The position numbers and the translations under genes are program-made. Below the pieces are notes generated by a model. That model saw nothing but the letters and a program-made list of their open reading frames with translations. It ran no database searches and had not been told where the DNA came from. From Polaribacter atrinae (lineage in GTDB: Bacteria > Bacteroidota > Bacteroidia > Flavobacteriales > Flavobacteriaceae): DNA of 64,000 bases. The number at the start of each line of letters is the position of its first letter. The first letter of the stretch is position 1. Below, in pieces: positions 21,861 to 43,991 of the stretch. The stretch lies in the NCBI RefSeq assembly GCF_038023995.1, contig NZ_CP150660.1, positions 1,796,501-1,860,500 on the forward strand, written 5' to 3'.

Positions 21861-21882
21861 ATTTTATTGGCTTTAAACCTAG

Positions 21883-21925
21883 TAGCGGGAACTGGACTCG
21901 AACCAGTGACCTTCGGGTTATGAGT
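21883..21925 (-). repeat. Left attachment site: 3' half of initiator tRNA-fMet
   Basis: These 43 bases are identical to 53538-53580, the anticodon-to-3'-end half of the intact initiator tRNA gene, in the same orientation. Beyond 21925 the sequence no longer matches tRNA. This is the standard scar of tRNA-targeted integration and marks the left island end. Confidence 0.93.
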
Positions 21926-24699: not shown

Positions 24700-25245
24700 T
24701 TATTTTCTAAGCCAACCTAACAATAAATCATTCTCAATTTCCCATACTCCATTTTTGTGAATCAACTTAAAAGTTGCTCTAGACATTCTGCCTACATTTT
24801 GTTGAACAATTTCAATCTCACTGTCACTAACTTTAGATACAATTGCAACATGACCGTATTTATTAAATCTATGACCATCCATAATTACTAAATCATTTAC
24901 TCTTGGCTGAGATTTACTTTTGTTAGAATATTGAGTAAGATTTCTTGCTGTATTTTTTTGCCCATCTTTTAACCCATGATTATAAAAGTCTTTTGCATGT
25001 CCAAAGGTGTTTGGCATTTTGTGACTTAAATGATCATAATAATACCTTTTTACAAACTCGACACATTGCCATTCTAGACCATAATTATATCCGTTCGTAG
25101 CCCTATGTCTAGTGTTTTTACCTTGATGTAAATAGACTGGAACATTATTAAAGGTATCTATAATTTCATTTCCTTTTTTATCATACGATCTATTACAATT
25201 TATAAAGCAAGCGCTTAATATCAATAATAAAAGAATCTTTTTCAT
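24700..25245 (-). CDS. CHAP-domain lipoprotein, likely peptidoglycan hydrolase or amidase
   Basis: The 181-residue lipoprotein (lipobox CFINC) carries one CHAP domain. Cys lies in EWQCVEFVKRYYYD, His in NKYGHVAIVSKV, and a polar residue follows in EIVQQN, giving the Cys-His-Asn/Glu active site. CHAP enzymes cut peptidoglycan peptides or hydrolyse gamma-glutamyl amides such as glutathionylspermidine; the GLEWQCVEF context fits both groups. The enzyme is anchored outside the cytoplasm. It is the last gene of the ten-gene operon, 11 bases after the nuclease gene. It may open the cell wall for the envelope machine. Confidence 0.82.
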   Translation of the reverse strand: MKKILLLLILSACFINCNRSYDKKGNEIIDTFNNVPVYLHQGKNTRHRATNGYNYGLEWQCVEFVKRYYYDHLSHKMPNTFGHAKDFYNHGLKDGQKNTARNLTQYSNKSKSQPRVNDLVIMDGHRFNKYGHVAIVSKVSDSEIEIVQQNVGRMSRATFKLIHKNGVWEIENDLLLGWLRK

Positions 25246-25256
25246 AGTTAAGAAGT

Positions 25257-26168
25257 TTAATCAATAATACATTCTAAAAAAACAGGTAAATGATCAGATA
25301 ACATTCTTGCATTTTTTAAATTATCACATGTTTTAACAAAATCTAAATGATCTGAATTAACAAATTTTACTTCTGCTGAAGTATAGTATATATTATCAAT
25401 AGAATGGTTTAAATAAACACCATTCTTACAAGACATTTTTAAGGTAGTTTTTTTATTTTTAACAGCACTTTTAAAACCTAAACTATATAGATCATCCCAC
25501 ACCTTATGACGTTCGTTTAAATTAAAATCTCCAACAATAAAAATATTATTCGTATTTAACCTTTTTGGGTAATCTTTTAAAAATTTAATTTCTTCTTCTG
25601 GGTGATCATTATGTTTTCTTGAATGAAAGTTGACAACATAAAACGGAGTATTGCCTTTTTTAAGTTTAAACTTCCCAATAAATGGTTCTCTAAAACACTT
25701 ATCTTCTAAGTCTTTATCTAAATATGCTTTTTCTAGTATGCTAACTTTTGAGGTTTTCCACAGAATAGCATATCGTTCTGACATGTATACTGATGGACTT
25801 TTTGTAGGGTTACTAATTTGATAATCCCATTTACTCCCCATTCTATTTAATTCGTCGACAATTTTAGCTACTGCTTGGGCTCCTGCAGGGTCTTTTGCAG
25901 CCACTTCTTGAATAGCAACTAAATCAAAATTCCTAAGAATTTCAGCAATTTCAATAATTTCTTCTGCATTCTTAGTTCTACCTAAATTTTGAATATTCCA
26001 GGTAAGTATTTTTATTGAGTTTTGGTCGCTTTTTTTTAATATTGTTTCTTGAGTGTTTAATGTAGCAGATTCTAAGTTTTTTAACTTACTATTTTTACTA
26101 CTTATGGATTCACACGAGAATTGTAATAATAATGAAACGACAAAGAAATATTGTATTAACCTATGCAT
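25257..26168 (-). CDS. Exported DNase I-like (EEP) nuclease, lipoprotein
   Basis: The 303-residue protein has a lipoprotein signal (LLLQFSCES). The endonuclease/exonuclease/phosphatase fold is clear: metal-binding Asn in KILTWNIQN, Glu in LVAIQEV, catalytic His in VVNFHSR, Asp-x-Asn in IVGDFNLNE, and Asp-His in MLSDHLPVF. All key residues are present. The fold cuts DNA, RNA or phosphoesters; the substrate is unknown. Its start overlaps the retropepsin gene by one base. A nuclease on the outside of the inner or outer membrane, in an operon with an envelope machine, could attack incoming DNA. Confidence 0.86.
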   Translation of the reverse strand: MHRLIQYFFVVSLLLQFSCESISSKNSKLKNLESATLNTQETILKKSDQNSIKILTWNIQNLGRTKNAEEIIEIAEILRNFDLVAIQEVAAKDPAGAQAVAKIVDELNRMGSKWDYQISNPTKSPSVYMSERYAILWKTSKVSILEKAYLDKDLEDKCFREPFIGKFKLKKGNTPFYVVNFHSRKHNDHPEEEIKFLKDYPKRLNTNNIFIVGDFNLNERHKVWDDLYSLGFKSAVKNKKTTLKMSCKNGVYLNHSIDNIYYTSAEVKFVNSDHLDFVKTCDNLKNARMLSDHLPVFLECIID

Positions 26169-26701
26169 TATTCTAATGTAATTTCTCCTCTTTTATAATC
26201 AATTGATATTTTTCCAAATTGCTCAAAAGCAGACTGACCTAGCAGAAGTGGTGCGATTTCATTATGTACTACTGAAGCTTCAATGTTTCTTAAAATAATA
26301 TTACCAATTTTAACTGTTTTCAAATTTATTATCGTTCCTTCAGAGATATCTCCATTAGCATCACTAAATTTCGCAGTTCCTTTAATGTCATCTTTGGTTA
26401 ATGTTCCTTGTTTCATTAAAAAAGTTGCTTCTGTTTCAGAGATTGAAATTATACCAGCTCCTGTGTCAAATATGAAGTCCATTTTAGCTCCGTTTAGTTC
26501 AACAGGTACATAGTAAACTCCATTACGCTTTTCCATTTTAATAATGGTTTTACCTGTTGACCTTTCTCTTGTTGTTAGTTCTCTTTTTGAAGGTATGTTT
26601 TCCACTTTGTTATTTCTAAACTTTTGAGCAGATTTAGAACAGCCATTGCAACTGGTTAAAGCAAAAGACAATATTATATATGTTAATAATCTAAATTTCA
26701 T
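26168..26701 (-). CDS. Exported retropepsin-like aspartic protease, lipoprotein
   Basis: The 177-residue protein has a lipobox (FALTSCNG). The single-domain clan AA protease shows the catalytic DTGAG in MDFIFDTGAGIISI, flap-like central strands, and the closing motif LLLGQSAFEQFGKISIDYKRG, as in the TIGR02281-type bacterial retropepsins. It should work as a homodimer in the periplasm or on the surface. It directly abuts the MotB-like gene. It might process a partner protein of this operon; substrate unknown. Confidence 0.85.
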   Translation of the reverse strand: MKFRLLTYIILSFALTSCNGCSKSAQKFRNNKVENIPSKRELTTRERSTGKTIIKMEKRNGVYYVPVELNGAKMDFIFDTGAGIISISETEATFLMKQGTLTKDDIKGTAKFSDANGDISEGTIINLKTVKIGNIILRNIEASVVHNEIAPLLLGQSAFEQFGKISIDYKRGEITLE

Positions 26702-27382
26702 TTATTTTGAGTATTCTATTTTTGGTATTATTTGTATAGAAAATCGTTTGTTGTTTTCTTCAATTTTATCACGACATAGACCATTAAATCCACTTCCACT
26801 AATTAAAATTTCTGAATTATATTTTCTTAAGTTAATATTATTAATGCTCCAAAGGTTATAAACAGCCAAAGCTCTTTCGTAGCTTTTTTTATAACCATAC
26901 TCGTTATCACTACTAAATTTTTTATCCCAAGAATTTGCCATATTTCCTTCTATAATTATTAAATAAGAAAAATTGGCATTTGCAACATTCAAGTTTTTTA
27001 ATAGTTCCTCTAATTTATTCCCAACCTTTATAGTAGAAGATTTGTATTTTTGTAAAATAGTTGATTTATTTGGTTCAAATATTTCTATACTATTTAATTC
27101 TTTTGAAATATATTTTTTGCAATCTTCCAAATAAATAAAGTCTCTATCATTTTGTAAAGGTTTAAATTGCTCATTTAATTGTAATATTTTATTTAATTTT
27201 TCGTTATCGGCTTCAATTTTTTCTTTTTCTTTTTCAAGTTCAACTAAGGCATCCTGAAGTTTCTTTTTCTCTTGATTAAGCATTACAGAAGTAAGAACAT
27301 ATAAAACTAGAACAACAAAAAAAAGACTTGTCATTAAGTCTGAAAAACTCATCCAAAAAAAATCTTTGTGTTTTTTACTCAT
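26702..27382 (-). CDS. MotB/OmpA-like stator partner (ZorB-like)
   Basis: The 226-residue protein has one membrane span at residues 12-34 with SFSDLMTSLFFVVLVLYVL, where Asp15 holds the place of the proton-binding Asp of MotB (AYADFVTAMM). A coiled coil follows (residues 36-66). The C-terminal half is an OmpA-like domain (LIIIEGNMAN, YERALAVYNLW, SGSGFNGL, NNKRFSIQII), degenerate but in order. MotB relatives anchor stators to peptidoglycan and pass ions; ZorB of Zorya is the closest defence analogue I know. It abuts the MotA-like gene without a gap. Confidence 0.83.
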   Translation of the reverse strand: MSKKHKDFFWMSFSDLMTSLFFVVLVLYVLTSVMLNQEKKKLQDALVELEKEKEKIEADNEKLNKILQLNEQFKPLQNDRDFIYLEDCKKYISKELNSIEIFEPNKSTILQKYKSSTIKVGNKLEELLKNLNVANANFSYLIIIEGNMANSWDKKFSSDNEYGYKKSYERALAVYNLWSINNINLRKYNSEILISGSGFNGLCRDKIEENNKRFSIQIIPKIEYSK

Positions 27383-29203
27383 TTATTTATTTTTTTTGGG
27401 AGTAAAAAAAAATTTTATCTTACTTGCAACACTCTTTTTTTTATTACTCTTTAATGGAGCTGCTTTATTTTTGTTATTTGATGTTGTTTTTGATTTTTCT
27501 ACACTTGCTCTTAATGATTTAATTTCTATATTAACTAAATCTAATTGATTTTTTGAATTACTCTTTATCTCATTAATAGATTCGTGTAGTTTATCAAGCA
27601 AGTCGAGTTTTTCAAAATGTCTTTTGTATTGAGAAAAATTACTTTCCATTAGTTCCTCTTCTTTTTTTGAAACTTTCTTAAGACTTTCTATTTTTTCTGA
27701 AAAAGCATTTTTTAACAATTTTTCTTCAGTTAAAGTTCTTTCTTTAATAGCGTTTATATTTTCAGTATATGCTTTTATTACAGAGTCCTCTTCTGTTATG
27801 GTTAATTGTTTTATTGCATCAATTTTTTCTGTTGTATGCTCTCGGAGTTCAACTAACGATTTATTTAAAATATCATCTACTTTCTTCACAGAGTCAGTTA
27901 ATAAATCTCCCCTTTCACTCAATACTTCATAATGGTCGTTTAAAAATTGAACCAACTTATTACTTTCTTCAATTCTAGAATCTAGTTTTTCAGCTAGTCC
28001 TTCAAAATTATTTGCTTTTTTTAATAATGTTTGAAAAGAATTTGATAGTCTAGTTGTACCATCTACAGTTGCGTTTAGAGAACTTAAATATTGATTAAAT
28101 TTATGTAAATCTTCTGTTCCAGCTTTTAACTCCCTTAATACTTTTATATTTGCTTTTGCAAACTCAGTAATATCAATGTTTTCAAGACTTTGTAGAATGT
28201 TATCTTGTGCAATAACAGCATCATAGTTTTTATTTAATAAGCCTGTTAAACGATTAATATTAACGGTAAAATTATCATTAAATTTAACAAGGTTTGTATG
28301 TAACATAAATACACTTGATGAAACACTTTGATTTAGAATAGGAAGTAATTCTGTTTGGATGAACGTATAAAAATCATTTTTTGCTATTTCTACGTCTTTT
28401 CGAGCAGTTTTATAATAGGTAGAGTTTGATACAGTAAATAGCAAACCAATAAAACTTGCAGACATTGCAATAGACACACCGATTAGAAAGCCTTTGATTT
28501 CGAATTGGTCTCCATCACCAGAAATTAAAAAAAGATTTATAAGCCCGAAAATAATACCAAGCATTGTACCCATTAAACCTAGATATAATGGTGTTGTAAT
28601 TCTTTGGCTTATATCTTCATCTTCTGTATCAATATTTCTTTCTGTAATGTCTTTAATTAGATTAAAATCTGTAGTAGCTCCTTTGTTTCGTAATAGATAA
28701 ACGTTTATAGAGTGTAAAAGACCATCAAAAATTGTATTACTTGTTTCGTTTGGATTGATTAAACTTATTTCATTTACAAACGACTCTTGTTCATTAGAGT
28801 TTTCGTAATTAGCGTGATAATTATGGATTGCAATAGCTTCATCTATTATTTCTTCTTTTAGCGTTGCTTTGATGTTTTCAGAAAAATCAACTTTTATTTT
28901 ATCCTTAATTTCAGTAATTGTTAAAGGCTCTAAGTTTTCATAAGTATATTCAAAATCATCAGATATTGATTTTATGTCTGTATTTTCTATTTCATATTTC
29001 GATAAATTATCTAAAACAACTTTTGGCTGAAAAACTTGTAAATCTTCAACAGGAATATTAAATAACTTTATTTTGAAGAAATCTTTGTTAGGAATTATCG
29101 ATTTGAGAACATTTATTTTTTTAAACGTTTTTAGCGTTTGAAAAATTTGAATTAATATGATTAGGCCAACTAATAGAAATTCAATTATCGTAATATTATT
29201 CAT
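27383..29203 (-). CDS. MotA/TolQ/ExbB-like stator with long coiled-coil tail (ZorA-like)
   Basis: The 606-residue protein has a first span at residues 5-25 and the MotA/TolQ core at about 200-265: PLYLGLMGTMLGIIFGLINL, then IKGFLIGVSIAMSASFIGLL. Beyond it about 340 residues are predicted long helix, with repeated heptad-like blocks near the end (TEEDSVIKAYTENINAIKERT, TEEKLLKNAFSEKIESLKKVS). The final 40 residues are very basic. MotA-type proteins form ion channels around a MotB dimer. The long tail is like ZorA, where it reaches into the cytoplasm. Start overlaps the previous gene by 8 bases. Confidence 0.85.
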   Translation of the reverse strand: MNNITIIEFLLVGLIILIQIFQTLKTFKKINVLKSIIPNKDFFKIKLFNIPVEDLQVFQPKVVLDNLSKYEIENTDIKSISDDFEYTYENLEPLTITEIKDKIKVDFSENIKATLKEEIIDEAIAIHNYHANYENSNEQESFVNEISLINPNETSNTIFDGLLHSINVYLLRNKGATTDFNLIKDITERNIDTEDEDISQRITTPLYLGLMGTMLGIIFGLINLFLISGDGDQFEIKGFLIGVSIAMSASFIGLLFTVSNSTYYKTARKDVEIAKNDFYTFIQTELLPILNQSVSSSVFMLHTNLVKFNDNFTVNINRLTGLLNKNYDAVIAQDNILQSLENIDITEFAKANIKVLRELKAGTEDLHKFNQYLSSLNATVDGTTRLSNSFQTLLKKANNFEGLAEKLDSRIEESNKLVQFLNDHYEVLSERGDLLTDSVKKVDDILNKSLVELREHTTEKIDAIKQLTITEEDSVIKAYTENINAIKERTLTEEKLLKNAFSEKIESLKKVSKKEEELMESNFSQYKRHFEKLDLLDKLHESINEIKSNSKNQLDLVNIEIKSLRASVEKSKTTSNNKNKAAPLKSNKKKSVASKIKFFFTPKKNK

Positions 29204-30473
29204 AAGTTATTTGAGCTTTTTCTTTAACAATCCATTTATCATCTTGTTTTATTGCAATACCAGGCTTAATAGTAATGATTTTTTTTGCGTTTTGGTTAAG
29301 TGGTTCAGTTTCTTCACAAGCTGGATATAAAAATGAATCTGGTGCATTTAAAGCTCGTTTTGCTGAGTTTTCTGTATTAAAAAACTGAAACTCTGCTTGA
29401 TTATTCTCTTTTAGAGTAAATTTATAGAATTTACCGTCTTTATCATCATTAACATCAAAAGCATTAAAAACTTTATCACTAACTGGTGTTTTAGCAAAAG
29501 CAAATTTTTGGGTCTCTTTTGGCTTTGGCTGTGAAATACTCTTTACTTGACTTGTTTTTTGCATACCTGAAACCGAACTATTGGTATTACTATTTTGAAG
29601 TCGTTCTATATCCAAATTTAACTTTGATATTTTATCGTAGATGTCTTTAATATCTCTTTCAGGACGAGAATTATTACTTTTATTACGATTATTGGATGGA
29701 TTAAATTGAATTTTAGATTGTTCGTATTCGCTTTTACTTAAACGTCTGTCAATTCTTTCGTTTAACTTTTTATTACTTATATAATTGTAAATAAATAAAA
29801 TAATAAATGCTAATAATATTAATGCGAAAAGTAACCAATTAGGAAAAAATGTACTTTTTAATTGATTAGTATCTTCTTTATTTATAATACTGTTAGAGTG
29901 ATTAATTTCATTTGTTGTAATTGATTCTGCTGTATTAATTGTTTCATTGTCTTCAAAAGAAGTTTGTTCTTTGAGACTATTTAAGGTTTTATTTAATTCA
30001 GATTCTAAACTACTTTTAAGTTCTTTAACAGCCGAATATTTTAAGACTATTTTACTAAAATCATCATTATTATAAAAACCATTTAAAATATTATTTATAG
30101 CTTGTTGTTTATTTATGCCATCTAAGTTTACTTTCTTAGATTCTTTTACAGCACTTTCTAATTTGCCTGCGAAACCACTAAAATTGTTATTTGATAATAG
30201 AACTTTTAGTTTGTCATAAGTAATATGTTCTTCAATGTTACAATTTTCTAATTTTTGTTTGATTACGCTTTCAAAAGATTTTTTTTCTCTATTAAACTCA
30301 TTCTGATTGTAATTTTCAGCTTTTCCATTAGATATATATTGATTTGTATATGCATAAGATATTTTGCAAGCACAATAATCAACAGCTATATCATATTCCT
30401 CTTTAGGACTTTGTGCATTTAAAGTCAAACTTGTAAAAAATAAGACTATTATTAAAGTAAAAAGTTTATGCAT
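29196..30473 (-). CDS. Single-span membrane protein of the envelope operon
   Basis: The 425-residue protein has a signal peptide (LTLNAQS). The outer part (20-210) holds four or so cysteines (DYCACK, LENCN) and helices. One span lies at about 215-240 (FFPNWLLFALILLAFIILFIYN). The cytoplasmic half begins with a basic Ser/Asn-rich linker and coiled coil (DIYDKISKLNLDIERLQNS) and ends in a small beta-rich domain (residues 325-425, KFYKFTLKENNQAEFQFFNTE). It links outside to inside next to the Hsp70-fold and stator genes. The C-terminal domain family is not recognised. Confidence 0.72.
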   Translation of the reverse strand: MHKLFTLIIVLFFTSLTLNAQSPKEEYDIAVDYCACKISYAYTNQYISNGKAENYNQNEFNREKKSFESVIKQKLENCNIEEHITYDKLKVLLSNNNFSGFAGKLESAVKESKKVNLDGINKQQAINNILNGFYNNDDFSKIVLKYSAVKELKSSLESELNKTLNSLKEQTSFEDNETINTAESITTNEINHSNSIINKEDTNQLKSTFFPNWLLFALILLAFIILFIYNYISNKKLNERIDRRLSKSEYEQSKIQFNPSNNRNKSNNSRPERDIKDIYDKISKLNLDIERLQNSNTNSSVSGMQKTSQVKSISQPKPKETQKFAFAKTPVSDKVFNAFDVNDDKDGKFYKFTLKENNQAEFQFFNTENSAKRALNAPDSFLYPACEETEPLNQNAKKIITIKPGIAIKQDDKWIVKEKAQITYE

Positions 30474-30477
30474 AATA

Positions 30478-33400
30478 TTACTTATTTAGTTCTGTTACAA
30501 TTTTGTAGCTTAATTTATTTAACGCACCAACTAAAGGGTAAAAGAATAAAGACTCTTCTAGTGCTATGTTTGTATTACCTTGTAAGGATTCAATTTTTCT
30601 TCTTAATCCTGTATCTAATAAGTTTAGAGTTTCTTCCTTCAGGATTGATTTGTAATTATCCAAATGGGCTGAATTTACACCAAAATATTTCTTGAAATTC
30701 ATAGAATCATCAATAGCGAATAATAAGTCAATAAAGTTATCTACTTCTGATACTACAGATTTCGTTAAATCATCACTAATATTATTGTATTTAATAGGGT
30801 TTTCGTTAATTGTAGTTTTTTCTGTATTACCTATTAAAACAGATTTGATATCCTCAATGTCACCAATAGAATCCACATCTATTTCTAAGCCGCCTTTACA
30901 AGTTATTTCTTTTGGATTTTTTTCAATATTAATTTTTACTTTATGATTTTTATTTCCTTCAAAGACTTTATCAAAAATTAAACCTGTAAGCTTATTTAAC
31001 TTGTCTAATTTATCACTTCCATTAGTTATTAAAATAGATTTTGAACCTGTTCCACTAAACAAAATATTTGTTGGTGCATCTATACCTTTTGCTTTCATTA
31101 AGTTAGCTATGTGGTATATTAAAGAAGAGTAAAAAACAATAAAAACAATTTTTAAATCATTATCATTTGAAAGCCAAGTGTTAAATAAAAGTGGTGCTTT
31201 TTTATTAATTACAGCTGTGTTTTTTTCTAGTGAAAAGAAAAAGGCAACTAAATCTTCGGACTTTTTCTTACTACTAATTTGGTCAAATGCACCTTTTAAA
31301 TTTGTCAGTTTATTATCAACAATTAATTCATTGATTTTTTCCTGATACTTTACAATAAAACCATTATTGTTAGGCGAACCACCATAACCATCTCCAAAAA
31401 TAGAATTAGCTGCAAAACGTGCAGAAGTTAAGGCGATAGGTTTCTCTTTTTGAAATATTACCACATCACTAGTACCACCACCAATGTCAATAGACACAAC
31501 AGTATCTGTGCCTGCAATTACATTGCCGTGATTTTGATAATAATAATATGGTGCTATTGATTCTGATAACTTTGAAGTTTTACCTTCTTTAAAATATTTT
31601 GTAAAATAGGTATTCCAAATGCCTTCTAATTGGTCTATTTTGCCTGGGTCCATACTAGATGGATAAAACCAAATTAGTTCAGTTTTATTTATATCACCTT
31701 TATTGAATAATACTTTAGACCTTATTAAAAGTAATATTTTTTCGATGAATTTTTCAACTCTAATTTTATTTGGACTATTAGTATCTTCAAAATCTGACCA
31801 TTTTAAATTTGTAGTTATTTCAGCATCAATATTGCTCTTATATTTTTCGTAATCAAAAGGAATATTTATATCTGCAAAGGCTTCTGGTGTCGATGAGAAA
31901 TTTAGGCTTCTGCTTTCTCCCGAAACTGTACGAATAGGAAAGTTAAACTCAGAATTATTACTTATTATTTTAGGTAAAAATTCGTGTCTTAAAAAATTCT
32001 CCATTTCTACAACGTCAGTATCAGTGCTTGAACTATGCAAAGTTTCATACTGAATTTCATCTTTTGAAATAGTAAAAGGTAAAGATGATTTATCACCTTC
32101 AACTTTATATTCAATATGCGTATTTGTAGTACCAAAATCCACTGCAAACTTCATCTTTTTTGAGCCATAGTTTGCTTTTAATTTAGGTATTATTATTCCT
32201 AGATTATCATTATAGCCAACTTCAATATAATCAAACTGCTGCTCTAAAGAATAAAAGTCAGTCTGAATGATTCCATCTTTTTTTAACGTTCTTGAAGTTT
32301 TATCTACTTCTAATGAATCTTTAGTTATATTAGAATAAAACTTTAGAGATAATGAATTGTGACTATTTACAGCATCTACGCCTTGGTCTAAAGCCATTAT
32401 TTTGTAAAATGAATCATATTCAATTTTAAGAAATGGATAAACAGCAAGCGAGATTTTATTGTCAATAATAACACCTTTATTATTTTCAACATCTTTATTG
32501 TCAGATTTTGCAGAACCATAATATCTTTCAAATGTAATATAATCTACATTTCTGTTTCCTTTAATTGGTATTCTAAGTTTAACATCGATTGAGCCAGAAA
32601 ATACTTTTGCTTCAAACATAGGTTTCCCATTAGGTAATGGTTTTTGAAGGTCTTCTGTATCAAAATATTCAAAGAATTTTTTAGATAATGGTAACAGAAA
32701 ACTTTTGTTATTATCACCACTTTCATTCTTAATATTACCATCAAAATATTTATCAGAGTTTAAAACGTAAGGAACTCTAATTATTTGTGGTTGTAAAAAA
32801 TCACTTACGGTTAGATAAGGAAATTTATCTAGTTGTCCCGGCAGTGTTCTTTCATTAATTGGTTTTTCATCAAAATAAGGAACCACCCAACTGTTGTCCC
32901 ATTTTACATTCCGATCTGTATAAATAAGAGATTCTGTAAAGTTGTTTTGTAAAACAAGTGGTTTATCCCTAGTTTTAGAAGATATAATTGTAAACTCACT
33001 TAAACTCTCAATGGTTGTTCTTCTATTTTCAATTTTCTTTTTCTTTAAAGGGACACCTAAAATTTCAATATTATTGTTTTCACCTATGTCTAGGGGTGAA
33101 TAAGAACTATTTATTCTCCCTACTAAGTCATCAGTTTTTTCCTCTTCGATTTTGCAAAGATCTCCATATAAAGTATTATTGTAACCATCCAAACGAGTCA
33201 AACTCTTTTCTAAATAATCCGCTAAATCTCTCATTTTAGTTTTAAGCTCAGGATACCCATTCACTAATTTGTAAATGTATTTTTGAAATTCTATATCTCT
33301 CTTATAGAGGGGCTTTAAATCATTATCAAAAAATATATCATTACCATTTTCAATGTTTGCAAAGCTTAAATCATTAGCAGACGTAAAAAACAAAGTTGTT

Positions 33401-33888
33401 GGCGAAGTTCCTCCAACAATTTTGTTGTCATAAAATATAAAATACAATTTATTTAATGAATTAAAATTGTTTGAACTAGCATCTTGCTTTAAAAATAAAT
33501 CTAATGTTTCTCCTAAGAGTTTGTGTTTAGGATTACTTGATGTCAAAAGATTGTTAAGGTCAGTGTTTTTATCCCAAGTTTTAATTTGTACTCTATCACC
33601 AAGTTTATCGAAATTGAAAAACATTTCAGCAACATCAAAACAGTCAGAAACTAATTTATGATAGATGGTGTTACCATCAAAATTATTTGAATCTGCAACA
33701 TATTTGAAAGCTGACCTAACCAAATCTACTCTTGCAAAAGGGCTTGGAATAGAAGTAGGGTCGGTTGTTGAATAATCTCCATCAGGATTATTAATATCTT
33801 CAATTACAGTTGGACCATATGGCTCACCTCTGTCTTCCCAATCTTGTAAATCTCTGTCTTGAAATAGTCTATATACCTTAGTAGCCAT
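30478..33888 (-). CDS. 1136-residue protein with actin/Hsp70-fold ATPase domain (SrfB-like)
   Basis: The first 575 residues are beta-rich and unrecognised. The ATPase fold follows: phosphate-1 loop FAVDFGTTNTHIEY at about 580, phosphate-2 loop VVSIDIGGGTSDVVIF at about 800, adenosine motif NILFSGTGSKSILIT at about 940. Spacing fits a large Hsp70/MreB/ParM-type domain with insertions. Size and order recall the SrfB virulence-factor family, though I cannot verify membership. No signal or membrane span: cytoplasmic. It lies 2 bases from the tubulin-like gene, so both cytoskeletal-type NTPases are made together. Confidence 0.82.
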   Translation of the reverse strand: MATKVYRLFQDRDLQDWEDRGEPYGPTVIEDINNPDGDYSTTDPTSIPSPFARVDLVRSAFKYVADSNNFDGNTIYHKLVSDCFDVAEMFFNFDKLGDRVQIKTWDKNTDLNNLLTSSNPKHKLLGETLDLFLKQDASSNNFNSLNKLYFIFYDNKIVGGTSPTTLFFTSANDLSFANIENGNDIFFDNDLKPLYKRDIEFQKYIYKLVNGYPELKTKMRDLADYLEKSLTRLDGYNNTLYGDLCKIEEEKTDDLVGRINSSYSPLDIGENNNIEILGVPLKKKKIENRRTTIESLSEFTIISSKTRDKPLVLQNNFTESLIYTDRNVKWDNSWVVPYFDEKPINERTLPGQLDKFPYLTVSDFLQPQIIRVPYVLNSDKYFDGNIKNESGDNNKSFLLPLSKKFFEYFDTEDLQKPLPNGKPMFEAKVFSGSIDVKLRIPIKGNRNVDYITFERYYGSAKSDNKDVENNKGVIIDNKISLAVYPFLKIEYDSFYKIMALDQGVDAVNSHNSLSLKFYSNITKDSLEVDKTSRTLKKDGIIQTDFYSLEQQFDYIEVGYNDNLGIIIPKLKANYGSKKMKFAVDFGTTNTHIEYKVEGDKSSLPFTISKDEIQYETLHSSSTDTDVVEMENFLRHEFLPKIISNNSEFNFPIRTVSGESRSLNFSSTPEAFADINIPFDYEKYKSNIDAEITTNLKWSDFEDTNSPNKIRVEKFIEKILLLIRSKVLFNKGDINKTELIWFYPSSMDPGKIDQLEGIWNTYFTKYFKEGKTSKLSESIAPYYYYQNHGNVIAGTDTVVSIDIGGGTSDVVIFQKEKPIALTSARFAANSIFGDGYGGSPNNNGFIVKYQEKINELIVDNKLTNLKGAFDQISSKKKSEDLVAFFFSLEKNTAVINKKAPLLFNTWLSNDNDLKIVFIVFYSSLIYHIANLMKAKGIDAPTNILFSGTGSKSILITNGSDKLDKLNKLTGLIFDKVFEGNKNHKVKINIEKNPKEITCKGGLEIDVDSIGDIEDIKSVLIGNTEKTTINENPIKYNNISDDLTKSVVSEVDNFIDLLFAIDDSMNFKKYFGVNSAHLDNYKSILKEETLNLLDTGLRRKIESLQGNTNIALEESLFFYPLVGALNKLSYKIVTELNK

Positions 33889-33890
33889 AA

Positions 33891-35411
33891 TTATAATAGT
33901 TTTTTGTTTACCAATGATTTAGTTGCTTGTGAAAATACTCCCATAAATCTTTTCGGTGGACTTGGCGCATCTCCTAATTTGTCAGAAGCTTTATTTAAGT
34001 GATTCACAAATAATTCATAATTGTTTTGTGCAAAAGGATTGAATTTGTTTTTTCGTTCTGGAATTCCAGTAACCAAAGTAAAAATACTCGTTGTATCTAT
34101 TTTAAAATCAGTAATTTCGTTCTGCTCATTAGTAATTGGGTTTATTGCAAAAGGCGCAAATGATATTTGATTACGGAATACTTCGGCTAACCAAATTCTA
34201 AACTCTTTATTAAAGTCTGATAAGAAATTTTTATAAAAAGATTGTTGAATAAAATTTGTGTCGAATTTTGCTCCATCTTCTGAAACAAATGGATAGTTTT
34301 TATCAATTGCCCAAGTCATTTTATCTTTTAAAAATAAATTGAAATAGAAATATTCTGTTAAGTTGTTTATAATTGAATTTTTTGTGCCATCAAACAAATC
34401 ATTAAAACTAAGTTGTCTAACAGCTTTAGTTCCAAATTCTTTATAAGTAGGGTTTGAAGCAATGCCATTTTTAGTTTCTAAATAAATATCTTCTGTATGT
34501 GCAAAATCAATTATTGATAAAGCAGATGCCAATTCTATAAAATGAGCATCATTTTTTTGATTTGTACCTCCTTCAATGTTTTCATAAGTATTTTCTGCTG
34601 AATCACCTATGTAGTATAAAGAATTTATAGAATTATTTCCAGAAATATTTCTAGCATAATAATGTAAAGCTGCTTTTGTTTTTGTTATAAAACCGTGACT
34701 GTCAATTTCAGAATTATCGTTTTGTTTTACTTTGAAATATGGTAAAACAGAAATTGCTCCGATTCTTGAATTTTTTAGATGTTCGTAATTTTTACCACCA
34801 ACTTTACCTTTTCTTAAGTTTTTAAGGAGTAGAGGAAAACCTGCTGCACCAGTTCCACCAAATATTGAACTTACAACAAAAATTCTATCATTTGCTTCAT
34901 AGCTATCTGCAAATGATTGAAACACCTCCGATTTTGTGAATTGGTTTAAAACAACACTACCAATATTTGGGTTTCCTTTAAAACCAACACCTAAATCGGC
35001 ATCTAAATTCTTTTCTGAAAATAACAATTTCACTAAGTTTTTATTATTCGCATCTAGCGAATTAAAATCTATAAAATCCTTGAATCTATCATTTTGAATT
35101 CCATCTAATTCAAATCGAAAACCATCAAAAACTTTTGCTCCACCACCTTTTTCTGTAACAATATCACTTAATGTTGAGATTTTGTTTTTGAAAAAATTGT
35201 TTTGTTCGTAACCATCTACAGTTTTATGAACATTTTGGTAATCTCTAAGTAGTTTTATTGTTCTATTTAAATCCCCCCCAGCACTATCTGGATCAATTAG
35301 AATGGGAACAACATCAAAATTTGTTTTTACTCCTGACGCTAGAAGCATTGTTAACGTTTTAATTACTCTTGCACCAGTACCACCTATTCCGAATATATAT
35401 AATTTTGCCAT
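33891..35411 (-). CDS. FtsZ/tubulin-like GTPase
   Basis: The 506-residue protein begins with the nucleotide loop YIFGIGGTGARVIKTLTML (residues 3-21). The tubulin signature loop is FGGTGAAGFPLLLKNLR at about 183-199. Length and motif variants fit the Tubulin_2-type FtsZ-like families rather than FtsZ or TubZ. No membrane span. Makarova and Koonin (2010, from memory) described such a family in operons with vWA and OmpA-type proteins and predicted membrane remodelling. Partners here agree with that neighbourhood. A filament-forming role is inferred. Confidence 0.82.
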   Translation of the reverse strand: MAKLYIFGIGGTGARVIKTLTMLLASGVKTNFDVVPILIDPDSAGGDLNRTIKLLRDYQNVHKTVDGYEQNNFFKNKISTLSDIVTEKGGGAKVFDGFRFELDGIQNDRFKDFIDFNSLDANNKNLVKLLFSEKNLDADLGVGFKGNPNIGSVVLNQFTKSEVFQSFADSYEANDRIFVVSSIFGGTGAAGFPLLLKNLRKGKVGGKNYEHLKNSRIGAISVLPYFKVKQNDNSEIDSHGFITKTKAALHYYARNISGNNSINSLYYIGDSAENTYENIEGGTNQKNDAHFIELASALSIIDFAHTEDIYLETKNGIASNPTYKEFGTKAVRQLSFNDLFDGTKNSIINNLTEYFYFNLFLKDKMTWAIDKNYPFVSEDGAKFDTNFIQQSFYKNFLSDFNKEFRIWLAEVFRNQISFAPFAINPITNEQNEITDFKIDTTSIFTLVTGIPERKNKFNPFAQNNYELFVNHLNKASDKLGDAPSPPKRFMGVFSQATKSLVNKKLL

Positions 35412-35434
35412 GCTTAATATTTTTATACTTTGTT

Positions 35435-35857
35435 TTAAAATTTACCGAAAAATAATTTAGGTGTTCCTTTGGCATTACTTCTCAACCATTTAAAGCAATA
35501 AGTCCAAACTATAAAGAACAAAGTTGATGTAATTGCAGTAATTAAACCGAATGTTATGTATTCAATGATTTCATATTCTATGCCTAAACCATAAAAAACA
35601 TTTTGAGGAATAAAGCATCCTACTAAAAAGGCAATTAAAAAATTTATTAATAGCATTACTAACCAATGTTGCCAACGGGAGAAACTAGGTCTGTTTATTA
35701 TAAAATAAAAGGTGAGTACAAGTATTAAACTTGTTAAAGTCGTAATTAGCCCAATAGAGACGTATAGATTTTCAGTAAACAAGTCATCAGAAAACACTCC
35801 TCTGTATGCAAGAGTTCCCCATTCAAAAACTCCCGAGAAAAATACATTTAAATCCAT
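35435..35857 (-). CDS. Small membrane protein with three to four spans
   Basis: The 140-residue protein has hydrophobic segments at about 32-53 (SIGLITTLTSLILVLTFYFII), 62-85 (HWLVMLLINFLIAFLVGC) and 97-120 (ITFGLITAITSTLFFIVWTY). The end is basic (KWLRSNAKGTPKLFFGKF). It lies 3 bases after the vWA lipoprotein gene and 23 before the tubulin-like gene. It may be the membrane dock for the GTPase. No family is recognised. Confidence 0.68.
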   Translation of the reverse strand: MDLNVFFSGVFEWGTLAYRGVFSDDLFTENLYVSIGLITTLTSLILVLTFYFIINRPSFSRWQHWLVMLLINFLIAFLVGCFIPQNVFYGLGIEYEIIEYITFGLITAITSTLFFIVWTYCFKWLRSNAKGTPKLFFGKF

Positions 35858-35860
35858 AAT

Positions 35861-37396
35861 TTATTTTTTAATTTCTATATTTATATTGAAGTAAGATTCG
35901 TTTTTAGGGTCTTGAATAGTGTATGCTTCAAAAACACCTTGAACCAAGTAGAGTAGACCAAAAGTTTTATCTAGTTCATTTTCTACATCTCTATCGTCTA
36001 TGCTATTACTTTCTTCAACCCAAGAGGGTATTTTGTTTGATAATTCTAACTTTAAATCTTGAAGTGTAAATTTACTTGAAGTAGCAACTGTTATTATATG
36101 TGTCGCAGTTGTTTTTTCGACTGTGAGAAAATCTCTTTTCTCAATTTTATTTCTGTCTACTTTTTCTATAGAATTTATAGAATAACCATCTGGCACAACA
36201 TAGTTTTCTATATTCATTAAATATGATTTGTCTACAGGGATATTTTCTAAATCTACTGCAATTGAAAATTGAAGGTTACCGTTTTCGTATTCAATTTCAT
36301 TTATGCTTTTTAAATATTTAGCTTTTCTGTCTGTTGGTTTAAAATTACCTATTTTATTGGTTTCTTTTAAAACTATGAAAAAAGGTTGGTTATTTTCTTG
36401 TGAATTTGATAAATAGTAACTGTTCTCAAAACCTTTTAACTGTTTAAGATTAATTTCTTCTTGAAAGGTTTTTATTAAATTATGTTTCCCAATAATCCAA
36501 AAATAATAGGGTCTTTCTTTTTTACTTAATCGAGTTTTACTATTATCCTTATCATAATAACATCCGTCAAACTTTGAATTCATTTTTAATACAATTGTTG
36601 AAAAATTAAATTCTTTAGATTTTTCAAGAAATGCACCTTTAGTTAAGCTTTTTTGAAATTCAAGAGCTCCCTCCGTGTCTTTTCCTTTATCTAGAGAATA
36701 AATGCAATCAGAAGTTAAAATTGATATTTCGTTTTGTTTGGTGCTGTCTAATATTATTTCTAATATTTCATTCAGTTTACTAACCGATCTATTTCCAACT
36801 TTATATGGGGCTTTACTAGGTTCTAAGGTTTCAACAAAATTATTTACCTCATCAACTTTTGAAGGGTGTATTTTTGTATTTATAAAGTTTATGTTTAAAT
36901 TTTGATTGTTGTTTTTTTCTTTGTTGTATTTGTATTGTAGTTGTACAAGTAAATCGGATAATGCAGCTTCAAACTCTGTAGTCCCTTTAACGTAACCGTC
37001 CATACTACCAGAGTTTTCAATAAAAATACTAACTTTTGTGTTTTTATCTTCATTCTCAGAATCCTTATAAGGACTAAAAATTTTCGACTCTGTATTGTTT
37101 CGCCTTTTATTCGCAACTGATAAAATTAAATTAGTGAGTTCTTCTTGGTTTATTTCATTGTTTGAATTTATGATTTGAGGTAAATCAAGACTGTTTTCGT
37201 TTACATATTCAATAAATTCATTTCTTTCTTTTTCAGTAATTTCATTCCCACTTCGCAGAGCTATATTAATTTTTTTATTTAGTTCATCTATTGGTTCATT
37301 AGCACAAGAATTTAAAAACACTAAGCTTCCAAATAAAAACAGTGTGCAAAAAATCGATAATTTTGTTTGTTTCTGTTGAATAATAGTTTTTTTCAT
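35861..37396 (-). CDS. vWA-like lipoprotein, first gene of the ten-gene operon
   Basis: The 511-residue protein has a lipobox (VFLNSCANE). Residues about 120-280 look like a von Willebrand A domain: VSIFIENSGSMDGYV gives a MIDAS-like E-N-S-G-S motif with Glu in place of the usual first Asp, and ISILTSDCIYSL supplies the later Asp. Helices around EFEAALSDLLVQLQYKY match vWA helix 1. The C-terminal 230 residues are beta-rich. vWA domains bind partner proteins through a metal. The anchor outside the inner membrane suggests a receptor or scaffold role for the envelope machine. Confidence 0.8.
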   Translation of the reverse strand: MKKTIIQQKQTKLSIFCTLFLFGSLVFLNSCANEPIDELNKKINIALRSGNEITEKERNEFIEYVNENSLDLPQIINSNNEINQEELTNLILSVANKRRNNTESKIFSPYKDSENEDKNTKVSIFIENSGSMDGYVKGTTEFEAALSDLLVQLQYKYNKEKNNNQNLNINFINTKIHPSKVDEVNNFVETLEPSKAPYKVGNRSVSKLNEILEIILDSTKQNEISILTSDCIYSLDKGKDTEGALEFQKSLTKGAFLEKSKEFNFSTIVLKMNSKFDGCYYDKDNSKTRLSKKERPYYFWIIGKHNLIKTFQEEINLKQLKGFENSYYLSNSQENNQPFFIVLKETNKIGNFKPTDRKAKYLKSINEIEYENGNLQFSIAVDLENIPVDKSYLMNIENYVVPDGYSINSIEKVDRNKIEKRDFLTVEKTTATHIITVATSSKFTLQDLKLELSNKIPSWVEESNSIDDRDVENELDKTFGLLYLVQGVFEAYTIQDPKNESYFNINIEIKK

Positions 37397-37926: not shown

Positions 37927-39168
37927 TCACAAAACCAACAATTCTAACACCTTCTCACCTAAAACCTCATCCAGTTCCCCATCCTCTAAAACAGAAACAA
38001 AACCCATTTTACACTGATGCTCTATTGCTGAATGATTTTTTTCTTGATCCAGGACATAATCATCTGTTAAGTACGATTTAAAACTATTTTCTCTAGTATC
38101 TCCTGGGTACAATAACAATGCTTTTTCTGCGTCCCAAAAACGACAATACGCATACATTTGACGTAAATCACTTACTGAAGCAGTATTATTTTTTGGTCTT
38201 TTCCATTTTGTGTCAATTATAAATGTTTGCGAACCTTTACGCAACACAACATCTGGTCTTAAACTATTGCCTCCCCAAAAGGATTTAGATTCTTGTCCTG
38301 ACACTTCTATATCAGTACCTAAACAAGCCTTCTGTAACTGCTTTAAAACATAGGTTTCCCATAATTCATTCATATCAAATAATAGTGACAACATCTTTTC
38401 TTTTCCGCTTGATATATCTGGCGAATAATTTAAAATAATTAGTCTCGCTAACTCTAATGAATTCGCATATCCAACAGATTTTCTATTTAACAGAATTTCA
38501 TTAAGTTGTTTTTCTGTAATAGGTTTTTGATCTACTTCTGGAAAATTTAACTGCACTCTGTTTGCTAAATCCTGTAATCTAGTTCCGTTTGTAAACTGAG
38601 TAACAATAATTAATGCTTTTTGTAATACTTGATGTAAAAAGTGATTACTATCGTACACTTGATGCGTAGTATAAAACCGTTCTTTATGGACTATATTTTC
38701 TCGAATATGTCCTGCAAATTGTAATTTACCTTTTAATGCTTTTGTATTTTGTGTCTGCTTTCTATAGTTTTTAATCAAACCTTTTCTAACCAAAATTTCT
38801 ACTTCTAATAAGTACAATTCAAAATAAACTTCTAGTAAATTAAGATGCTGTCTTTTTACATGCGCTGCTCCTGTAGATGATGCTTTAAGCTTTCCGCATG
38901 CTTGTAACATTTTTAATAAAACACCTTTCCATTTAGTATCTGCATCATCTTTATCTGCTTTTGGGTGAATTTCAATAGTTAAACCATCTACCTGAATTAC
39001 GCCAACATACTGATTAAATTTAATCCCTTTTGCAATAGATTCAAAATAATTACTATCGTGATATTCGTTCAGTTTTAATAGCGCATCTAAATGTACTTGC
39101 CTAAAACCTTCCTCACCAACGTATAAACGTTGGTGTTCAAAAACCGATATTGTCTTATTACTTATCAA
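37927..39168 (-). CDS. mcrC: McrC-type nuclease subunit of McrBC
   Basis: The 413-residue protein has the McrC N-terminal beta-rich domain (FNQYVGVIQVDGLTIEIHPK) and a C-terminal PD-(D/E)xK nuclease: LRPDVVLRK then TFIIDTKWKR at about residues 300-325. It abuts the McrB gene, 1 base apart. McrC joins the McrB ring and cuts modified DNA. It belongs to the leftward defence run of the island. Confidence 0.9.
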   Translation of the reverse strand: MISNKTISVFEHQRLYVGEEGFRQVHLDALLKLNEYHDSNYFESIAKGIKFNQYVGVIQVDGLTIEIHPKADKDDADTKWKGVLLKMLQACGKLKASSTGAAHVKRQHLNLLEVYFELYLLEVEILVRKGLIKNYRKQTQNTKALKGKLQFAGHIRENIVHKERFYTTHQVYDSNHFLHQVLQKALIIVTQFTNGTRLQDLANRVQLNFPEVDQKPITEKQLNEILLNRKSVGYANSLELARLIILNYSPDISSGKEKMLSLLFDMNELWETYVLKQLQKACLGTDIEVSGQESKSFWGGNSLRPDVVLRKGSQTFIIDTKWKRPKNNTASVSDLRQMYAYCRFWDAEKALLLYPGDTRENSFKSYLTDDYVLDQEKNHSAIEHQCKMGFVSVLEDGELDEVLGEKVLELLVL

Positions 39169-41619
39169 TTATTCCGCTTGCTTTTTTCCTAACAATGATA
39201 AAATTGCATCGATTACATTATCTTCATCTACTTTCTTTAAAAGGAATGAAGGTGCTTTAAAATCATTTGAATTTTCATAAGAAAAATCTGCAAAATTGAT
39301 AGCATCATTTTTTTTCTTTTCTACAAACCCTTTTCCTAACACCAATCCTATTTTACCATAATCACCATAAAAATACTCTTGTAATAAAGGCACTATTTTA
39401 GTATTAAAAGCTTTGGCTAGTTTTTCTTCTGAATTTACTTTACAAAAGTACGAATGACCAATGGCATGATCTCTATCTATTAATAACTCTATACGCTCGT
39501 TTATCTTTTTTAAAACTTCAGATAGCTTAATATGATCTACTTCTTCATTTTCTATAACAGTATAATCTGGCATCATTTCTTTAAACTCAAAACGACGTCT
39601 TAATGCAGTGTCTAATGCTTCTACAGATCTATCTGCTGTATTCATGGTACCATAAATATCTAAGTTAGAAGGTACACTGAAATTTGTTTTAGAATACGGT
39701 AACTTAATACTTAACTCGTTTTTAGCGCCACTTCGTTTATCGGTTTCAATAAGCGTTATTAACTCACCAAAAATAGCAGAAACGTTTCCTCTATTTATTT
39801 CATCTATAAAAATAGCATATCTATTTTCAGGGTCATTTTTTGCTTTTGTACACAATTTTTTAAAAACACCATCTTCAATCTTATATCCTAAATCTTTAGT
39901 TTCTTCTTCTGTTTCAGGAAAAACAGGTTTGATTCCTTCTATAAAATCTTCATAAGCGAAAGATTGGTGAAATGTTACGAAATCGTAATTTTTTATAACT
40001 GTTTCATTATTGCTTTTAAAATTGTTAACCTCATCTATTATATCATATATTTCAGGAATTTGCTCTTTTGTTTCTTCCTCAAGTAACTGCCACATTTTAT
40101 CATTATTCTTATCAAAAATTAACGGATTTTGACGTTGTTTATATGCTACATTTTCTGAAGAAGTTATCGTGTGCATTTGCAACGTTCCCCATATTGTAGC
40201 TCTCACATTTTTAGATTCTGATAAGGATGCTTTCGTTTTCACCCATCTATTCTCCAAAATCTCATTTACTTTTGACGTTCCATTTTCAATGAGTGCGATT
40301 GCTATTACTTGCCACCAAGTTAAATTCGTTATTTTATTTTCAAAAAACTTTTCTTTGGTAATAGCATTCTCTTTAAGCGTATATCCATCAAACAACTGAT
40401 CTTTTAAATAAAAGGTTTTCCCTGTTCCTGGAGGTCCGTATAGAATTTGGTTTGTTGGTGGAGTATTATTTATTTCTATAACATTTCTACTTTCAACCTT
40501 ATCTCCCTTCATAATCGCTAATAATTTGTCGTAATAACTTGTGTTTTCATTCCCTTTTTCTTTGTATTTTGTAATATTGGTTAAGGTTTTTAATGCGAGG
40601 TTAAAATCTAATTTCCAATTACCTTTTAAAATCCAATCTACATTTCTATAATTTTTATAAGATTCTCTCTCATCATCAAAAAAAAGTTCCGAAGTAACTT
40701 CGCCATAACCTATCAATTCGTTTAGTCCTTTTTTAACAATAATAATATCTCCTGGTTTCATTACTTTTAAAAAATCATAATTCGCAGCGGTATTATTAGT
40801 TTTTCCTGAAGTAGTATTCGCTAATTCTTGAAGTTTTATTTTAATGGATTTTTTAGTGGAATATGCATTTAAATCACCTAAACCATCCCAACCAAGTCCC
40901 ATAATTCCCTTTTCGTAAAATTCTTCCCATTTACTAGCATTTTTACCTGGAGCATACATCCAATAATTTATAGGTTCAAATTTATTAAACATTTGATATA
41001 AAATGTCTTGAGCTACTAAAAGGTGATTTGAACCATCATAATACTCAGGAATAAAAGATTTTACTAATTCAATAAGTTCGGTATCATTTTCTATATATTC
41101 AGAAATTATTTGATGTATCAATTCTAAATAATGTGCATACCTTTCATTTACTTTCGCTTGTTCAATATTTAACAAATCGCACAATTCCTTATAATAAGCA
41201 TACTTGTAAAAAGTATATTTTTCTGGATTGTAATAAGTTAAATAAACCGATATGGTTCTTTCGTCTTGATGATGAGAAAGAGTTTCTCCTAATCCTCTAT
41301 AGATTTTTAAAGTTTCTTTATTAAACGATTTAACTCTAGTATTTAAATCAATAGATTCATTAAAGAGATTCTTAAAAAGTAAACGTATTTTTTCGGGTTC
41401 TTTAAGTAATAATTGTTTAATAACTGCTTTACTCATAGCATAAGGCAAATTATCGTAATTAATTTTCTTTACTTCATCTAAAAAATTGTCAGCATTTAAA
41501 TTTGGAAGTCCTTTGTATTTTTTTAGTAATTCCCATTTATAACGTTCATCTTTTAAATGCGTTTTTTCAATTTCTCTTTTGTAATTATCTATAAGGGGTT
41601 GCAATTTATTCTTAGGCAT
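39169..41619 (-). CDS. mcrB: McrB-type AAA+ GTPase with EVE-like reader domain
   Basis: The 816-residue protein has an N-terminal helical part, then at about 215-345 an EVE/PUA-like domain (NYWMYAPGKNASKWEEF, IMGLGWDGLGDLNAY, MKPGDIIIVKKG), and an AAA+ motor: Walker A YGPPGTGKTF at about 393, Walker B YAIFIDEINRG at about 601 and the McrB signature MNTADRS at about 660. EVE-like domains bind modified bases, so the target is probably phage or foreign DNA with base modification. GTP hydrolysis drives translocation before McrC cuts. Confidence 0.9.
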   Translation of the reverse strand: MPKNKLQPLIDNYKREIEKTHLKDERYKWELLKKYKGLPNLNADNFLDEVKKINYDNLPYAMSKAVIKQLLLKEPEKIRLLFKNLFNESIDLNTRVKSFNKETLKIYRGLGETLSHHQDERTISVYLTYYNPEKYTFYKYAYYKELCDLLNIEQAKVNERYAHYLELIHQIISEYIENDTELIELVKSFIPEYYDGSNHLLVAQDILYQMFNKFEPINYWMYAPGKNASKWEEFYEKGIMGLGWDGLGDLNAYSTKKSIKIKLQELANTTSGKTNNTAANYDFLKVMKPGDIIIVKKGLNELIGYGEVTSELFFDDERESYKNYRNVDWILKGNWKLDFNLALKTLTNITKYKEKGNENTSYYDKLLAIMKGDKVESRNVIEINNTPPTNQILYGPPGTGKTFYLKDQLFDGYTLKENAITKEKFFENKITNLTWWQVIAIALIENGTSKVNEILENRWVKTKASLSESKNVRATIWGTLQMHTITSSENVAYKQRQNPLIFDKNNDKMWQLLEEETKEQIPEIYDIIDEVNNFKSNNETVIKNYDFVTFHQSFAYEDFIEGIKPVFPETEEETKDLGYKIEDGVFKKLCTKAKNDPENRYAIFIDEINRGNVSAIFGELITLIETDKRSGAKNELSIKLPYSKTNFSVPSNLDIYGTMNTADRSVEALDTALRRRFEFKEMMPDYTVIENEEVDHIKLSEVLKKINERIELLIDRDHAIGHSYFCKVNSEEKLAKAFNTKIVPLLQEYFYGDYGKIGLVLGKGFVEKKKNDAINFADFSYENSNDFKAPSFLLKKVDEDNVIDAILSLLGKKQAE

Positions 41620-41709
41620 CTCAATAATTTAAAAACTCAACTTGTTATAATTCTGTTTTCTGATAAATTATATATTTTATTCACTAATATTATTTGGATA
41701 ACATATCAT

Positions 41710-43634: not shown

Positions 43635-43642
43635 AATTTTAA

Positions 43643-43970
43643 AATAGGGCCAGATACTATTAGTAGCAGGTTTAGAATGTACATGCCTTTCGAAGCTTTC
43701 ACTCTAAAGAGCTATTGCAACGCTACTCTTTTCAGGTATAGAAATTGTTATCTTTGTAATAACCTTCTTAAACATTATTAAAATGCCTAATAGATTAATT
43801 CGCAAATGCAACTTCAAGAAGTCAACAGTTCTTACACTGTTGTCAACCATATCCTCAATTATCACTTTACTGGGTGATTATTTGGATAATGGTATCTTCC
43901 TTCCAATCTAACGTATATCTTAGAAAGTAAAACTGAGTAAAACGTAACATTCCGACCTTCTGGCCCATTT
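43643..43970 (-). ncRNA. Candidate non-coding RNA partner of the reverse transcriptase
   Basis: No gene fits in this 330-base gap. GGGCCAGA (43647-43654) and TCTGGCCC (43959-43966) are an exact inverted repeat bounding it. Inside, ACCATATCC/GGATAATGGT (43846-43894) encloses AATTATCAC/GTGATTATT, and CAACAGT/ACTGTTG (43823-43842) forms another stem. In known DRT systems and retrons, a folded RNA encoded just upstream is the template for the reverse transcriptase. The arrangement fits, but transcription is not shown. Confidence 0.6.
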
Positions 43971-43991
43971 TATTATTTTAATTATTCTTCT

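Follow-up and report, generated by a model that had tools for sequence, protein, structure and literature searches.

A conserved operon of Bacteroidota combining tubulin- and actin-like NTPases, a Zorya-related motor and swappable secreted hydrolases

We have analyzed a stretch of 64,000 nucleotides from Polaribacter atrinae (assembly GCF_038023995.1, contig NZ_CP150660.1, forward strand, positions 1,796,501-1,860,500), hereafter called the window, which carries at positions 24700-37396 an operon of ten open reading frames (ORFs) on the minus strand, separated by intergenic gaps of -8 to +23 bases (table 1). All ten ORFs lie where an earlier note, made from the letters of this DNA alone, had placed them. 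Its labels of retropepsin, EEP nuclease and CHAP peptidase for the three distal genes are borne out by Pfam matches above the cut-off, whereas MotB_plug, MotA_ExbB, Tubulin_2 and FtsA stay below it when single sequences of the window are scanned.

Table 1. Features of the operon and of the surrounding island in the window (aa, amino acids; TM, transmembrane helices)
Feature	Coordinates	Strand	Basis
vWA-like lipoprotein, 511 aa, core	35861..37396	-	vWA-type fold matches of structure model
Small membrane protein (TM140), 140 aa, ~3 TM by eye, core	35435..35857	-	60/68 loci
Tubulin/FtsZ-like GTPase, 506 aa, core	33891..35411	-	Tubulin_2 below cut-off
Actin/Hsp70-fold ATPase, 1136 aa, ~575-aa N-terminal extension, core	30478..33888	-	Structure comparison
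Bitopic protein (TM425), 425 aa, core	29196..30473	-	60/61 loci
MotA/TolQ/ZorA-like motor subunit, 606 aa, long tail beyond TM helices, core	27383..29203	-	48/61 loci
MotB/ZorB-like subunit, 226 aa, TM aspartate, OmpA-like domain by eye, core	26702..27382	-	ZorB1 match
Secreted retropepsin-like aspartic protease, lipoprotein, 177 aa, swappable slot	26168..26701	-	gag-asp_proteas E 2.8e-17
Secreted EEP-family nuclease, lipoprotein-like, 303 aa, swappable	25257..26168	-	Exo_endo_phos E 9e-9
Secreted CHAP amidase/peptidase, lipoprotein-like, 181 aa, window only	24700..25245	-	CHAP E 4.1e-15
Distal att copy, 43-bp tRNA-Met 3' end	21882..21924	.	Perfect 43-bp direct repeat
Island defence genes: McrC-like, McrB-like AAA, DRT2 reverse transcriptase, HsdS, HsdM, HsdR	37927..49443	-	Library matches
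DRT2 reverse transcriptase	42081..43634	-	PADLOC E 5e-139
Tyrosine recombinase of island	51862..53487	-	Phage_integrase E 8.6e-10
tRNA-Met with other att copy (53538-53580)	53538..53611	-	ARAGORN, repeat

Related loci were retrieved by searching an alignment of the tubulin-like protein against one genome per species (84,980 species), which returned 341 loci, and the neighbourhoods of the best 80 of these 341 were annotated with profiles built on the window's own proteins. In this profile reading the order vWA, TM140, tubulin, ATPase, TM425, MotA and MotB recurs, and since the same gene order is found in related loci the arrangement is not due to chance. The ATPase stands beside the tubulin in 80/80 loci. 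Upstream of the tubulin, the vWA gene is present in 67 and TM140 in 60 of the 68 loci with at least 2.6 kb of sequence on that side, while downstream TM425 is found in 60, MotA in 48 and MotB in 40 of the 61 loci that reach 8.5 kb or further, some of which end before MotB. The conserved core consists of seven genes, those for the vWA-like lipoprotein, the small membrane protein, the tubulin-like GTPase, the actin-fold ATPase, the bitopic protein, MotA and MotB. The suggestion of the earlier note that all ten genes form one system holds for this core, whose order recurs across Bacteroidota, so that homologues do occur together elsewhere; it does not hold for the set as a whole, which is not fixed, the EEP gene being occasional and the CHAP gene recognized in the window only. 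(A gene for a DUF805-type membrane protein lies 4-6 bp upstream of the vWA gene in loci L022, L024 and L058, and 190 bp upstream in L040.)

The hydrolase tail at the 3' end of the operon is the main new finding of our analysis. Retropepsins occur at 24 loci including the window, all with the motif DTGA, and trypsin-like proteins, which Pfam assigns to the Trypsin_2 proteases, lie downstream at 12 loci and upstream at a thirteenth (L021). Nucleases are represented by SNase at 14 loci (on the opposite strand in 3), by EEP proteins at 8 including the window (the copy of L035 being on the opposite strand) and by DNA/RNA non-specific endonucleases of the NucA type at 3, with transglutaminase-like proteins at another 2; CHAP is recognized in one of 83 sets, that of the window, many loci ending before the place it would occupy. 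No locus carries retropepsin and trypsin together, and some members of both families have common leaders after the lipobox, for example SGCSGCSxSG and SCKRPxR. Of the 61 loci whose sequence continues for 8.5 kb or more downstream, 43 have a recognized hydrolase; among the 43 MotA loci that extend at least 1.5 kb past the last motor gene, 35 have a recognized hydrolase and 8 have none. On a tubulin tree of 81 rows, built by a quick method, the type of hydrolase changes at least 11 times, a count based on 47 rows scored in five states, with 34 rows unlabelled and no shuffling of labels (the upstream trypsin of L021 was excluded, a hydrolase being otherwise scored anywhere on the locus). In these sequences the protease slot is often filled and the EEP nuclease occasional, the core staying in place while its hydrolases are swapped.

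Most of these hydrolases carry a predicted lipobox. By a home-made rule, which 28 of 181 control ORFs also pass, it is present in 24/24 retropepsin, 13/13 trypsin-like, 4/4 nuclease (NUC), 2/2 transglutaminase-like, 11/14 SNase and 1/1 CHAP ORFs. The lipobox suggests that most of the hydrolases are anchored to the envelope of their own cell and therefore argues against a competition or secretion system, in which the machine would export or fire its hydrolases at neighbouring cells. We consider this explanation improbable, even if the tail, with its secreted proteases and nucleases and the wall amidase of the window, resembles antibacterial cargo and the residues of the motor described below are conserved, given also that the ten proteins match no secretin or needle family in the library scans.

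The earlier note had related the MotAB pair to Zorya, and the MotB-like subunit supports this relationship. ZorB models match 26/26 MotB members, and in PADLOC the match of the window MotB to ZorB1 (E 1.4e-12) is the only strong one among the ten proteins, the other listed row being a weak match of the EEP protein to SduA (4.5e-4). When compared with solved structures, the MotB profile finds 8vvn (2.7e-13), the MotB of 6ykp (9.7e-7), 8qyd, which we take to be ZorB (1e-6), and 8vvi (5.6e-4). In a published table, 8VVN is listed as a Shewanella ZorAB of type I and 8VVI as one of type II (PMC11890865). The top structural match of MotB is thus a type I ZorB, yet not every ZorB outscores MotB, because the type II ZorB of 8vvi lies under the MotB of 6ykp. 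The link is looser for MotA, since the best single ZorA model (ZorA2) matches 9 of its 32 members, at best with 3.8e-13, the window copy not being among them. Conserved motor residues are nonetheless found in both subunits, namely D15 in 26/26 MotB sequences and T213 and T257 in 30/32 and 31/32 MotA sequences, respectively, the counterparts of channel residues known from MotB and TolQ.

Comparison with what is accessible of the Zorya account (PMC11890865) suggests a common design, comprising a ZorAB-related motor, a B subunit with a domain of the peptidoglycan-binding type, a long-tailed A subunit and modular effectors. The operon differs in that its ten proteins have no PADLOC match to ZorC, ZorD, ZorE, ZorF or ZorG at E 0.1, in that it adds tubulin- and actin-like NTPases together with a vWA-like lipoprotein, and in that its putative effectors are secreted whereas those of Zorya are cytosolic (PMC11890865). 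Variants of the motor region were also seen. An additional pair of genes at 18604-20609 of L028, between MotB and the retropepsin, looks MotA/MotB-like by eye, without support from Pfam. A membrane protein of 514-616 amino acids (X600) follows MotA in L004, L005, L008, L010, L011 and L027, with MotB next in five of the six; these loci have no recognized hydrolase, but L010 and L011 stop at MotB and L004 shortly after it. The possibility that X600 is a second vWA protein was discarded (hhalign probability 2.6%).

The remaining core proteins are more divergent. The vWA label of the earlier note is retained on account of the structure model of the lipoprotein, which matches mostly vWA-type entries with modest Z scores (5.3 to 7.2), and of its invariant residues E127, S131 and D230, position 129 being either S or T; it finds no backing in Pfam, where none of the 34 family members matches vWA families. 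Profiles made from the vWA and tubulin alignments found nothing among PDB sequences at E 0.1, and TM140 matched no family above cut-off in library scans of the Pfam and PADLOC type. The tubulin of the window matches the Pfam families Tubulin_2 (E 2e-4) and Tubulin (5.8e-4), in both cases below the cut-off, while PF13809 (Tubulin_2) is precomputed on 15 of the 120 listed homologues; residues 10-13 (GGTG), 185-188 (GGTG) and G191 are invariant in 17/17 sequences. The bitopic protein has, by eye, a signal peptide, a periplasmic part, one transmembrane helix, a coiled coil and a conserved C-terminal domain, with C386, G405 and W414 invariant among 22 sequences. Regarding the 1136-residue ATPase, a fold comparison covering residues 576-1011 assigns an actin fold to residues ~577-1007, with MamK and MreB as nearest structures and DnaK tied within 1 Z. 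The actin/Hsp70 label proposed earlier is therefore kept in modified form, the modelled domain being as close to the filament-forming MreB and MamK as to Hsp70.

Such a pair of NTPases bears on a further explanation, namely that the operon is a nutrient-acquisition or surface-digestion locus with its own dedicated energizer. Bacteroidota do use lipoprotein hydrolases and motors driven by the proton-motive force (PMF) for uptake, but we know of no place for a tubulin/actin pair in nutrient-uptake loci, none of the ten proteins has a Pfam match of the SusC/SusD type, and the hydrolases mix nucleases, proteases and an amidase, so that we regard this possibility as very remote.

Parts of the operon are foreshadowed in the literature. 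The neighbourhoods of FtsZl1 (Pfam Tubulin_2) were predicted to form a membrane-remodelling machine (Makarova and Koonin 2010, PMC2875224); according to the accessible text, the majority of FtsZl1 proteins carry an extended coiled coil, and P-loop GTPase or protein kinase partners are frequent, if not universal. The operon has in common with them a protein of the Tubulin_2 kind (the window copy itself scoring below the cut-off), a vWA partner and an OmpA-type domain, whereas that text makes no mention of an actin-fold ATPase, of a MotAB motor or of hydrolase swapping (PMC2875224). No extended coiled coil is evident in the 506-residue tubulin-like protein, judged by eye alone, and unlike many FtsZl1 neighbourhoods the ten proteins have no P-loop GTPase or protein kinase among their Pfam matches. 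Tubulin, HSP70 and vWA domain proteins also occur in the conflict-type GAP1-N2 operons (Kaur et al. 2020, PMC7159879). There, in the portion of the account available, tubulin and HSP70 constitute non-overlapping themes; both accompany a TRAFAC GTPase with GAP1, and the chief hosts are firmicutes and actinobacteria. Our operon instead contains both NTPase folds together with a PMF-type motor, and no TRAFAC GTPase is found among the Pfam matches of the ten proteins. Finally, vWA proteins are linked to PMF motors as force transducers of TolQR-like systems, being, in the accessible part of that work, tethered to the inner membrane (PMC12204202), while the operon has a separate vWA lipoprotein and a MotB-type protein. 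Among the matches listed in our literature search, made mostly in papers free of subscription, no title or abstract describes the whole gene set, in agreement with the earlier suggestion that it had not been described as such. The gene combination is real and conserved, and we found no earlier description of it beyond the parts foreshadowed by FtsZl1/vWA in 2010, tubulin/HSP70 in 2020 and Zorya.

The hosts of the best 80 loci, by their database names, are mainly Bacteroidota, plus three Leptospiraceae (all with MotA and one also with MotB), one Sulfuricurvum (a bin, whose core has neither MotA nor MotB by our profiles) and one Williamsia. (The latter locus, L025, clusters with Chitinophaga-type rows of the tubulin tree and is perhaps a mis-binned contig.) Searches of plasmid records with the tubulin protein found six matches, five on cyanobacterial replicons (27.5-30.8% identity) and one on a Prevotella replicon, and none in phage records. 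Two of the cyanobacterial plasmids (L142 and L143) carry the tubulin (2e-45 each), the ATPase (4e-20 and 4e-30) and a relative of TM425 (1e-6 and 9e-10), with no match to MotA or MotB on either. One of them has a vWA match (2e-10); on the other, a divergent neighbouring protein containing DGSGSM was recognized by eye and missed by the profile. Neither of the two proteins taken for vWA, the second read from its annotated start (409 amino acids), matches Pfam. Because these plasmids have the tubulin, ATPase and TM425 without a recognized motor, the core may extend beyond the motor form of Bacteroidota. Within Bacteroidota the operon is scarce. It is present in one of the 24 genomes of the same genus (G000-G023 among 39 searched; a match of 20 bits over 84 residues in G031 was not counted), in 9/395 phylum genomes (E below 1e-90) and in 12/295 class genomes (1e-30), counts that all include the genome of the window. 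In the phylum scan 172 of the 395 genomes match at E 1e-3; the others listed are for the most part 25-60-residue stretches of FtsA type, G365 (1.3e-11) and G340 (1.9e-6) falling in between.

In the window, the operon rides on an integrative island of 31.7 kb, delimited by direct repeats of the tRNA-Met end and provided with an adjoining tyrosine recombinase; a Mutator transposase also lies in the island. The earlier note had the operon carried between restriction systems on an island, of which the island stands, bounded by the tRNA, but the type I restriction-modification (RM), McrBC and DRT2 genes are all on one side. In one relative, L133, a sequence corresponding to window positions 21510-21924 (the 43 bp and ~370 bp leftward) aligns at 72% beside an intact tRNA-Met and era, although the site is not simply empty, since an integrase relative sits immediately to its left. 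Another six stretches (L134-L138 and L140) have tRNA-Met beside era without the window's left flank, and L139 shows no tRNA, its fetched stretch excluding the upstream side. Two further genes may be mentioned. A short ORF at 22912-23208 appears, by eye, to be the C-terminal remnant of a Fic protein. Outside the island, positions 14592-15269 encode a response regulator that has a 71% paralogue elsewhere in the same genome and whose family is present on six other operon loci and in 0/181 control ORFs. A two-component pair near the operon was rejected, because the 669-residue ORF at 11668-13677 is a TonB receptor, which leaves the regulator as an orphan.

On the basis of the conserved gene order, the ZorAB-related motor with its conserved residues, the swapping of hydrolases, the patchy presence and the defence-rich tRNA-Met island, we propose that the operon is an envelope-spanning sensor and actuator of Bacteroidota which would deploy periplasmic hydrolases, probably in defence, a reading to which we give close to an even chance. 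A role in defence appears likely; as to the mechanism, we infer that the vWA lipoprotein and the MotB domain would sense damage or intrusion at the peptidoglycan or outer membrane, as proposed for Zorya, with MotAB being turned or strained by proton flow. The tubulin/actin pair, perhaps as filaments, would build or position the complex under the membrane, and the anchored proteases, nucleases and amidase would be locally released or activated in the periplasm, where they could cleave the cell wall, entering DNA or the apparatus that injects it. The operon would then resemble a Zorya turned outward, with the same motor idea and its effectors outside the cytoplasm. It is possible, if doubtful, that it represents a new class of immunity, in which a proton-driven motor, anchored to peptidoglycan and coupled to paired tubulin/actin filaments, would upon phage attack deploy exchangeable periplasmic proteases, nucleases and amidases, eliminating the invader within the envelope while its genome has yet to enter the cytoplasm.

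Several observations weigh against this proposal of a defence machine. The MotA profile matches the ZorA of 8vvi only at 0.0013 and TolQ at 0.044, amid coiled-coil rows; 13 of the 61 loci have no recognized MotA and nine retropepsin loci, eight of them of Spirosoma, no recognized MotB, so that the motor is not always present. EEP ORFs satisfy the lipobox rule in just 2/9 cases. Relatives of the window HsdM are found at 2/80 other loci (L035 and L057) and those of HsdR, DRT2, McrB and McrC at 0/80. A wide linkage to defence islands was likewise considered and set aside as weak: the 113 upstream proteins of 20 loci including L057 gave 91 PADLOC families at E 1e-15 (families, not proteins, being counted), the 25 shown belonging for the most part to type I RM, alongside PDC, mad2 and MTase_II, whereas the 6 families obtained from 107 control proteins (mad3, mad8, RtcR, GlgB) include no RM; the difference between flanks and control lies chiefly in a few RM and PDC genes. 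Moreover, the tubulin tree tracks host families, with 18 changes against a minimum of 17 (23 of the 81 rows belonging to no family), and since its labels follow the host family, the spread of the operon looks mostly intra-family, with frequent absence.

The latter pattern would also suit an envelope-maintenance or membrane-remodelling machine, in which the motor and NTPases move or remodel the envelope and the hydrolases serve quality control. The trypsin-like members of the tail, being Trypsin_2, belong to a common type of periplasmic protease, and the core extends across phyla including cyanobacterial plasmids. The theme of Tubulin_2, vWA and OmpA points in the same direction, as far as the accessible account goes (Makarova and Koonin 2010, PMC2875224). 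A housekeeping function of this kind seems nevertheless rather unlikely, for the operon is rare and patchy, its hydrolase type changes repeatedly, nucleases (SNase, EEP and NucA-type) fit poorly with envelope quality control, and the window operon lies on a defence-rich mobile island.

If the proposed defence function is true, a relative of tubulin, an actin-fold relative and a PMF motor would act in one operon, a combination that we did not find among the literature matches listed, and the site of action would shift from the cytoplasm to the envelope. The swapping tail allows the comparison of the same core carrying a protease or a nuclease. The operon would also offer a concrete, cloneable way into the role of FtsZl1/vWA operons, a question asked since 2010, and would extend the motor principle of Zorya to a new setting.

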